This document shows positions 42,201-43,523 of a DNA stretch of 64,000 nt, piece by piece. The notes under the pieces are model-generated. The model made no database searches, was not told the DNA's origin, and saw only the letters and a program-made list of their open reading frames with translations. Location: NCBI RefSeq assembly GCF_005771565.1, contig NZ_VAWA01000004.1, positions 1 through 64,000 of the forward strand. The letters are read 5' to 3'. Numbering within the stretch: the stretch's first letter is position 1; every line of letters starts with the position of its first letter. Position numbers and translations under genes: made by a program. The stretch comes from Nesterenkonia sphaerica. Lineage in GTDB: Bacteria > Actinomycetota > Actinomycetes > Actinomycetales > Micrococcaceae.

Positions 42201-42614
42201 ATGCCACTTTCGGAGCGCGAACAGCGGCTGCTGAAAGAGCTGGAGCAGCAGCTCCAGTCCGATGACCCTGGCTTCGCCAGCTCTCTCGAGGACTCAACAG
42301 TCGGTGGGGCGTTCAATGTGCGCAACCTGGTGCTCGGTCTGTTGGTGACAGTAGTCGGCGTCGGGGTCCTGATCGCCGGTATCTATCAGCAGTGGATTCC
42401 GCTGGGCATCGTGGGCTTCCTCATCATGGGGCTGGGCGTCTACTTCGCCACAGCTGGCGGACCCATCGGGCCCAAGCGAGGCAACGGCGGCGGCAACGGC
42501 GACGGCGGCGGCGGTTCAGGCGGCTCGGGGCCGCGCAGCTCCACACCCAGCCCCTCGGGCGGGAACTTCATGAGCACCTTGGAACAGAAATGGGAGGAGC
42601 GCCGCCGCCCCTAG
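42201..42614 (+). CDS. DUF3040 membrane protein
   Basis: 137 residues. The start MPLSEREQRLLKELEQQL is the hallmark of DUF3040, an actinobacterial family. Two TM helices follow (about residues 42-85), then a Gly-rich tail containing GNGDGGGGSGG and a charged end. The function is unknown. The gene commonly sits just upstream of mraZ in actinobacteria, suggesting an envelope or division role. AGGAG lies nine bases before the ATG, and a strong hairpin terminator follows. Confidence 0.92.
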   Translation: MPLSEREQRLLKELEQQLQSDDPGFASSLEDSTVGGAFNVRNLVLGLLVTVVGVGVLIAGIYQQWIPLGIVGFLIMGLGVYFATAGGPIGPKRGNGGGNGDGGGGSGGSGPRSSTPSPSGGNFMSTLEQKWEERRRP

Positions 42615-42622
42615 TCGCGGAC

Positions 42623-42657
42623 CTCCACTTTCCACCACACTCTCCACTTTCCACCAC
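42623..42657 (-). repeat. Two copies of a 16-bp MraZ-box-like repeat, inverted relative to the mraZ operator
   Basis: CTCCACTTTCCACCAC occurs exactly at 42623-42638 and again at 42642-42657. Its complement, GTGGTGGAAAGTGGAG, occurs exactly at 42867-42882 inside the mraZ promoter repeats. The pair begins 8 bases after the DUF3040 stop and lies about 210 bases upstream of the operator. A plausible reading is a distal MraZ-binding site. Confidence 0.7.
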
Positions 42658-42664
42658 GCGAAGG

Positions 42665-42692
42665 AAAAACCCCCGCTGCGGCGGGGGTTTTT
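42665..42692. terminator. Bidirectional terminator after the DUF3040 gene
   Basis: A 12-bp inverted repeat AAAAACCCCCGC / GCGGGGGTTTTT with a 4-base loop. It carries T5 on one strand and, by symmetry, on the other. It isolates the mraZ cluster from the upstream gene. Confidence 0.88.
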
Positions 42693-42859
42693 CTCGTCTC
42701 GGGCTCTGAGGCCCCGGCCCTGATGAGGCAGGGCCTCCACCGCGCTCCACTGCGCACCCACCTCCGACCAAACCGGCAAAACTGCTGCTCAGAAGCATGT
42801 GCAGCGTGCCAGTCCGGTGGCCGAGCGGCGCTATTTCGGCACGGAATGGTGGTGTCTGG

Positions 42860-42903
42860 TTGGTTTGTGGTGGAAAGTGGAGTAAAGTGGAGCGCGATGG
42901 GAC
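42860..42903 (+). promoter_or_regulatory. mraZ promoter and tandem MraZ operator
   Basis: TTGGTT (42860-42865), 17 bases and TAAAGT (42883-42888) form a promoter. Superimposed are 10-bp direct repeats beginning at 42864, 42874 and 42884 (TTTGTGGTGG, AAAGTGGAGT, AAAGTGGAGC), plus a degenerate fourth GCGATGGGAC. Regular GTGG cores on one helical face are the signature of MraZ boxes in other bacteria. Their overlap with the hexamers implies autorepression of the division cluster. Confidence 0.8.
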
Positions 42904-42948: not shown

Positions 42949-43380
42949 ATGTTTCTCGGCACCTACACTCCGCGCCTGGACGAGAAGGGGCGTCTGATCC
43001 TTCCGGCGAAATACCGGGACGAGCTCTCAGCGGGGCTGGTCCTGACTCGCGGGCAGGAGCGCTGCATCTACGTCTTCAGCACTGGTCAGTTCGCGGCAGT
43101 GCACGAGCAGATGCGGCAAGCGCCGCTGACCTCCCGTCAGGCACGGGACTACATCCGCGTATTCCTCTCCGGAGCCTCGGACGAGACTCCGGACAAACAG
43201 GGGCGAATCACCATTCCCCCCGGGTTGCGTGAATACGCAGGACTTGACCGAGAGGTCACGGTGATCGGAGCGGGCGACCGCGCTGAGATCTGGGACTCCA
43301 CGGCCTGGAACACCTACCTGGAGGAAAAGGAGTCAGAGTTCTCCTCCACCGACGAGGAGGCCATCCCCGGCCTCTTCTGA
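42949..43380 (+). CDS. mraZ: Transcriptional regulator MraZ
   Basis: 143 residues forming two SpoVT/AbrB-like halves. The first, [23 protein letters not shown], and the second, [22 protein letters not shown], each contain the D-x-K/Q-GR DNA-contact loop. MraZ assembles as a ring of eight or more subunits and binds tandem repeats before its own gene, repressing the division and cell-wall cluster. GAGGGG precedes the ATG. The leader is about 50 bases from the predicted start site. Confidence 0.95.
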
Positions 43381-43523
43381 TGACAACTTCATACGGGCCC
43401 TTGAGTGAGCCTCCTTACCGGACTGAGCAGTCCTGACTTCACTTCCCCGATGTCAGGCCGGGTGAAGTCCGGTGGGGGAGCCGATTCAGGGGCCCGATTT
43501 CGTCCAGAGGTGCGGAGGTGAGG
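43381..43523 (+). ncRNA. Candidate mraW-type structured leader between mraZ and rsmH
   Basis: This 143-base gap can fold several ways: GGACT/AGTCC arms at 43420-43433, TCCTGAC pairing with GTCAGG, and the 8-bp arms GACTTCAC (43435-43442) and GTGAAGTC (43462-43469). A conserved RNA motif upstream of mraW (rsmH) has been described in actinobacteria. Position and pairing potential fit, but I could not compare with its consensus. Confidence 0.35.

Follow-up and report, generated by a model that had tools for sequence, protein, structure and literature searches.

Inverted GTGG-Box Pairs at Whole-Turn Spacings Upstream of Actinomycete mraZ as Candidate Auxiliary MraZ Operators

Introduction

Why should an actinomycete mraZ gene carry exact copies of part of its own operator, turned upside down and well upstream of its promoter? 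The question was raised by a first-pass annotation of the window, by which we mean the whole 64,000-nucleotide stretch of Nesterenkonia sphaerica DNA that was analysed (assembly GCF_005771565.1, contig NZ_VAWA01000004.1, positions 1 to 64,000). It bears on a gene that heads one of the most conserved operons of bacteria.

The mraZ promoter of Burkholderia cenocepacia is described as carrying, at the start site, four repeats of 7 nt separated by 3-nt spacers, and MraZ homologues as forming rings (PMC7761207). The MraZ boxes of Mollicutes are given as direct repeats of AAAGTG(T/G) (PMC8475190), and the Mollicutes site is called known and conserved (PMC5138195). MraZ–promoter complex structures are available in the PDB (9r4j and 9sz7). 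In Dietzia, MtrA is reported to bind a 100-bp fragment upstream of mraZ (PMC9602371), and LexA binding is reported at an mraZ homologue from gut (PMC3998124). The locus studied here resembles those of E. coli, Mollicutes and B. cenocepacia in having repeated GTG(G) boxes of the kind used by an MraZ ring. As far as these sources describe them, the known MraZ boxes are repeats at the promoter, whereas the extra copies here are inverted, remote and helically phased. We found no description of remote or inverted MraZ sites in the open-licence papers searched.

Loci and Genome Samples

Three samples were compared with the window. The first comprised 80 named mraZ loci, the best 80 of 571 matches; the closest of these to the mraZ of the window was that of N. 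salmonea (99% identity over 143 aa). The second comprised 80 genome stretches from the same order and class. Three of them (G067, G095, and G053) belong to the window's own family and were excluded from the set of other actinomycetes, which left 77. The third added 20 stretches from other classes and from family f21. Loci with less than 600 bp of upstream sequence (L012, L014, L034, and L040; four of 81) were excluded from the conservation counts.

For each minus-strand pair, d was counted from its right-hand edge to the operator pair containing the TA of the −10 element, at the first G of that operator pair. Five of the 158 loci had no such operator (G077, G105, G201, G289, and G250) and were excluded from the distance analyses.

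Results

The Window Locus

The genes around the site are, in order, an impB/mucB/samB-family (dinB-type) polymerase gene, a DUF3040 gene, mraZ, and mraW. The MraZ of the window possesses both DxxxR motifs (D11..R15 and D82..R86), which are invariant across 12 aligned proteins and which we take to be the DNA-binding motif of MraZ. Its predicted structure (mean pLDDT 72) had TM-scores of 0.70–0.78, normalised by the query, to chains of 9r4j and 9sz7. The features of the region are as follows.

42201–42614, plus strand: DUF3040 gene (PF11239), upstream neighbour of mraZ, with its stop at 42614
42623–42638, minus strand: outer of two distal inverted MraZ-box pairs (GTGGTGGAAAGTGGAG), with d = 239 measured to the reference G of the operator (42877)
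42642–42657, minus strand: inner of the two distal inverted pairs, d = 220
42665–42692, plus strand: terminator-type hairpin 3' of DUF3040, between the distal and middle box clusters
42734–42761, minus strand: inverted cluster of three GTGG boxes (spacing 11, 10), the middle MraZ-box site, with an exact N6 pair at d = 127
42860–42865, plus strand: −35-like hexamer TTGGTT of the mraZ promoter, assigned from sequence
42867–42893, plus strand: mraZ operator, direct GTGG boxes at 42867, 42877, and 42887 (10-bp period)
42883–42888, plus strand: −10-like hexamer TAAAGT, between operator boxes 2 and 3 and running into box 3
42949–43380, plus strand: mraZ, 143 aa (PF02381, E 5.7e-37)

A TTGGTT-N17-TAAAGT promoter had been proposed in front of mraZ, and both hexamers lie where they were claimed to be. 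A scan with the strict sigma-70 consensus detected no promoter at its threshold and did not report the TTGGTT hexamer. The pattern GTGGNNTANNGTGG, which represents the operator with its −10-like hexamer, was present in 153 of the 158 loci. The hairpin was found by folding and was not listed by a rule-based terminator scan.

The first-pass annotation had further claimed three exact copies of one 16-mer, two of them inverted, about 210 bp upstream of the operator and between the DUF3040 stop and its terminator, and had held that this could not be chance. All of this was borne out. The 16-mer GTGGTGGAAAGTGGAG occurs on the plus strand at 42867–42882 and on the minus strand at 42642–42657 and 42623–42638, and a plus-strand copy with two mismatches occurs at 42877–42892. 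The distal copies are 210 bp from the start of the operator, and both fall between the stop and the hairpin. No copy of the 16-mer was found in 100 dinucleotide shuffles of the window. Across 2,789,228 bases of the genome (86 contigs), GTGGNGGAAAGTGGNG matched 39 places with up to two mismatches; its zero-mismatch places in the 2.79 Mb searched were only the three window sites. A chance origin was rejected on the strength of the window shuffles, this genome search, and the locus-shuffle counts given below.

The inventory of inverted sites had to be enlarged. The distal site is real, and its two exact 16-mers are not just a pair: they form one four-box run. A second inverted cluster, the three boxes at 42734–42761, had been missed. 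GTGG-type boxes in the window recur with a period of about 10 bp, the spacings being 10, 9, and 10 in the distal cluster, 11 and 10 in the middle cluster, and 10 and 10 in the operator. The main operator has three to four direct boxes that overlap the promoter. The inverted clusters, most of them pairs, lie at a distance from it, and we therefore propose them as auxiliary sites rather than promoter operators.

Conservation across Actinomycetes

Minus-strand GTGG-N6-GTGG pairs were counted in bins upstream of mraZ. In the Micrococcaceae, they were present in 44 of 77 loci at −400 to −226 and in 44 of 77 at −225 to −121; dinucleotide shuffles yielded means of 1.1 and 0.6 loci (maxima 4 and 2) in the same bins. 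In the other actinomycetes, the corresponding counts were 41 and 33 of 77 loci, with shuffle means of 0.9 and 0.5 (maxima 2). Plus-strand pairs were nearly confined to the last 120 bp (75/77 Micrococcaceae loci and 69/77 others), with 2/77 and 5/77 in the next bin. Elsewhere, minus-strand pairs were detected in 3/77 loci over the first 600 bp counted from the start of mraZ and in 2/77 at 1.2–1.8 kb upstream. Two bins showed elevated counts for a mirrored control pattern (11/77 where the real count was 44, and 15/77 where it was 41), probably through partial overlap with GTGGTGG-like arrays.

The idea of a distal MraZ site had been made to depend on the presence of the distal repeats in close relatives. 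Among the 13 named Nesterenkonia/Garicola loci, each with at least 600 bp of upstream sequence, the exact distal pair was kept in 11, and the nearer exact pair in all 13. Since the sites recur across the family and the class, we also rejected the possibility of a species oddity. A minus pair sharing its exact 16-mer with the first pair of its own operator was seen only in the window (twice) and in G210, among 153 loci that include those without any minus pair. The conserved feature is thus the box pair with its spacing, rather than the exact 16-mer.

Conservation has limits. Neither the middle nor the distal exact pair was present in 40 of the 153 loci with a recognisable operator. A strict pattern combining a pair, a gap of 53–113 bp, and a TA-containing operator was matched in just 50 of 296 class genomes (51 places) and in 153 of 297 order genomes; reversed as a control, the pattern matched seven and five genomes, respectively. 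The loci without pairs and the low number of strict matches in the class indicate that many lineages can do without the sites, or carry them in degenerate form or at other spacings. Among the f21 genomes of the class sample, only G440 matched the strict pattern, and three f21 stretches had minus pairs further out. Outside the class, the distribution was patchy: of 17 stretches, G573 and G621 carried minus pairs and G645 a looser one, two had no array at all, and the remainder had plus-strand arrays only. In the class sample, the 18 f34 genomes (genus g86, 6–11 Mb), which their size and number mark as probable Streptomyces, yielded no mraZ gene.

Expanded distal arrays were seen in some loci. 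Nesterenkonia cremea (L008) carries eight inverted boxes with 10/9 spacing at −342 to −269 from mraZ, G190 carries four pairs 22–23 bp apart, and G055 carries five pairs (box spacing 9–11). One genome, G225, has two mraZ genes, on contigs C39 and C64. Each is preceded by a phased inverted pair (d = 71 and 73), suggesting that the architecture travels with the gene.

Minus-Strand Pairs and the −10 Element

The consensus of the minus pairs equals that of the operator except at the position of the −10 TA. This dinucleotide was found in none of the 219 minus pairs, versus 150 of the 281 plus-strand (operator) pairs. On the minus strand, no offset between −60 and +79 showed an excess of TAnnnT, which never exceeded 0.9% of the 219 pairs. 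As no minus pair has a −10 TA, the minus pairs look like pure MraZ sites and not like antisense promoters.

Helical Phasing of the Spacing

The distances in the fetched loci were clustered at d of 70–74, 82–85, 92–96, and 101–107, with empty gaps between the clusters. Strict-pattern matches were analysed in the same way. Of the 51 places in the class sample, 39 could be compared with mraZ coordinates, and all 39 were located 36–89 bp upstream of mraZ; the matches in G286 and G285 are on a contig other than that of the listed mraZ. The 51 places and 133 more among the order-sample matches listed, not already taken, made up 184 places, of which at least two are probably not at mraZ (G286 and the second place of G545). 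Among the matches listed, the 184 distances fell at d of 61–62, 68–74, 81–85, 92–98, and 103–105. When these places, minus the f1 rows, were pooled with isolated Micrococcaceae pairs, the resulting 211 distances included none at 75–80, none at 86–91, one at 98–100, and none at 108–112.

With each family–distance combination counted once, the best period was 10.95 bp (R = 0.666, 90 combinations), and none of 2000 jittered sets reached this R; in the 90 combinations, the window's own family enters twice, as named loci and as f1 genomes, with all its middle pairs. Two analyses were free of this double labelling. The nearest pair per fetched locus yielded the same best period of 10.95 bp (R = 0.661, 54 combinations, jitter null 0/1000), and isolated two-box sites yielded an R of 0.61 (42 combinations, null 0/5000). 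We also considered an artefact of boxes sliding inside longer arrays. The isolated two-box pairs (65 of 90 pairs) keep the period, with an R of 0.43 at 10.0 versus 0.60 at 10.75, so one-box sliding does not explain it and this explanation was rejected.

The distal pair was phased more weakly than the nearer one. Its distance to the operator had a period of 10.7 (R = 0.433, null maximum 0.37, 0/1000), and its distance to the middle pair a period of 10.35 (R = 0.614, null maximum 0.518, 0/1000). Four control distances, namely operator to ATG, middle pair to ATG, DUF3040 stop to middle pair, and the distance for other GC-rich pairs, were unphased, with R values of 0.175–0.284 that the null reached in 100–386 of 1000 sets.

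Spacings are inherited, and the effective number of independent events is therefore smaller than the counts; two d values, 72 and 84, dominate the data. Micrococcaceae distances are more dispersed above about 105 bp. Under a looser pair definition (N5–7), one locus, L075, fell in a gap (d = 87). Shifts by whole turns were seen within families f3, f8, f13, f16, f18, and f32, for example at d of 61.5, 72.5, 84, and 96 in f16; 72, 83.5, and 93.5 in f3; 83, 94, and 104.5 in f18; 71 and 92 in f8; and 71.5 and 92 in f13. The window and the loci L001 and L002 have nearly equal middle-pair d values (127, 126, and 127) and distal d values (220, 220, and 219), despite operator-to-ATG distances of 72, 64, and 140 bp. 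In L004, the middle d (104 and 114) and the distal d (208) are both about one turn shorter than in these three. A spacing in whole helix turns suggests that the DNA may fold back on itself to regulate the operon.

Discussion

Proposed Auxiliary MraZ Operators

The reading that we favour, with a probability of roughly 0.6, takes the inverted GTGG pairs for auxiliary MraZ operators, through which the mraZ promoter would be folded into an autoregulatory complex by looping or wrapping. From the sequence patterns, we infer MraZ as the binder, a loop as the contact, and repression as the effect. MraZ would bind the main operator, whose three to four direct boxes overlap with the promoter's −10 region, and also the opposite-strand two-box sites about 60–130 bp and 170–300 bp upstream. 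With the box groups on one face of the helix, MraZ rings bound there could touch or bridge. Such contact would draw the DNA upstream into a small loop or wrap; MraZ would then occupy the promoter more fully, and negative feedback on mraZ and on the division and cell-wall operon would become sharper. The same box on the opposite strand, with no promoter element and with phase kept over about 60–300 bp, is most simply accounted for by MraZ–MraZ contact across looped or wrapped DNA. As a ring has a rotational sense, a hairpin-type loop on inverted sites would, on geometric grounds, call for either an opened ring or a pair of rings with opposite sense.

The auxiliary operators of lac, gal, and ara act through DNA looping, and their spacing follows the helical repeat. 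The window and the other loci have the same two properties: remote extra sites that match the main operator, and helical phasing of the spacing. Unlike in lac, gal, and ara, the sites here are mostly two-box arrays, inverted relative to the operator, with a ring-forming regulator, up to three phased groups, and a presumed loop. The looping that the first-pass annotation had envisaged for a remote inverted site thus gains indirect support from conservation and phasing; its second suggestion, an action on the DUF3040 transcript, is taken up below.

A more specific form of this reading is tentative, and we give it somewhat less than an even chance. Here, in a large share of the actinomycetes, the gate of the division and cell-wall operon would be a three-node, phased, divergent MraZ array that loops or wraps for autoregulation, possibly with two rings of opposite sense, and lineages would change the loop by whole turns. 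Such a rule of whole-turn gain and loss would be the evolutionary footprint of a protein–protein contact across DNA. With the phased inverted sites, DNA bridging by the MraZ ring could be tested directly and cheaply, and the mraZ locus of actinomycetes would become a natural system in which to study loops built by rings. The sites improve, too, the operator model with which division control can be annotated in the actinomycete class.

Alternative Explanations

The evidence for phasing is weaker for the distal than for the middle pair, and a loop might not be needed for the nearest site to influence RNA polymerase. In that case, MraZ bound at the middle inverted pair would contact the polymerase in the style of a class I activator, and the distal sites would contribute only cooperativity. 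Class I activators such as CRP obey a helical-face rule, with steps of about 10–11 bp upstream of the promoter. The same rule would hold here, as the middle-pair centres would be near −87, −97, −109, −119, or −129 if transcription starts about 18 bp past the operator reference G, a position deduced from the −10 hexamer. However, direct contact leaves the phased distal sites, more than 170 bp away, unexplained, and MraZ boxes here, unlike in the CRP case, also overlap the −10 region, which would point to repression. We consider this explanation unlikely.

A second protein might instead set the phase from a conserved element between the middle pair and the operator, the MraZ boxes being accessory. 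An element of this kind is TCTGACCTGC in many families, and some Micrococcaceae have a dyad-like one; in this explanation, TGACCTGC or the dyad-like element would be the candidate site. TGACC(T/A)G was detected on the plus strand in 39 of 77 non-Micrococcaceae loci (shuffle mean 2.9, maximum 8) and, reversed, in 10 of 14 Nesterenkonia loci (shuffle mean 0.75, maximum 2). In the group with d of 60–77, the element was 5–6 nt from the pair in 19 of 25 loci, but only three of 25 loci possessed it in the group with d of 78–90, which is equally well phased. Nor was the plus-strand element enriched over the 78 Micrococcaceae loci (three, shuffle mean 3.9). A second protein as the source of the phase therefore seems improbable to us.

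Titration, in which the inverted pairs merely soak up MraZ and set a threshold, would suit sites expected to be weaker than the operator for having two boxes, and would suit long runs such as the eight boxes of L008. A decoy, however, needs neither a fixed orientation nor a helical phase, and we hold out little prospect for it.

The other suggestion of the first-pass annotation had MraZ acting on the end of the DUF3040 transcript. In an RNA-level role, the distal copies would act in the DUF3040 3' end, or would pair with the operator boxes in a read-through transcript. In favour of this, both window copies fall in the interval from stop to terminator and match the complement of the operator 16-mer exactly. 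The similarity of minus pairs to their own operator was also marginally above permutation (12.57 of 16 positions, versus a mean of 12.32 and a maximum of 12.56; 0/500 reached it). Exact complementarity, however, is found in only two of the 153 loci, the window and G210. In the Micrococcaceae (n = 40), the distance of the distal pair to the operator had an sd of 35 bp, and that to the DUF3040 stop an sd of 110 bp. The distal pair thus tracks the operator and not the stop, and its place between stop and terminator looks incidental. On these two grounds we rejected this as the main role and consider it very improbable.

Leftward promoters, with each inverted cluster acting as the MraZ-controlled operator of an antisense transcript, match the orientation of a divergent operator copy, but were rejected as very improbable because the minus pairs have no −10 TA and no enrichment of TAnnnT around them; both they and RNA pairing fit badly with the data.

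Other Features of the mraZ Region

A conserved element TCTGACC(T/A)GC is found 3' of the middle pair in other loci, for example at about −159 from the ATG in L006; a pattern of this type was not found in the window. In Micrococcaceae with d of about 84 (L016, L018, L020, and L070), its place 3' of the middle pair is taken by a dyad-like TTCCC..TGATTGC.AGGAA or by ATCCGCATGAATCCGCGGAT. The dyad-like sequence is perhaps the site of a different regulator, exchanged together with a one-turn change in spacing.

The mraW RNA motif is a known cis-regulatory RNA family. In the window, a match to this motif (RF01746) was detected in the gap between mraZ and mraW, at 43392–43502 on the plus strand, with 54 bits against a gathering threshold of 50.
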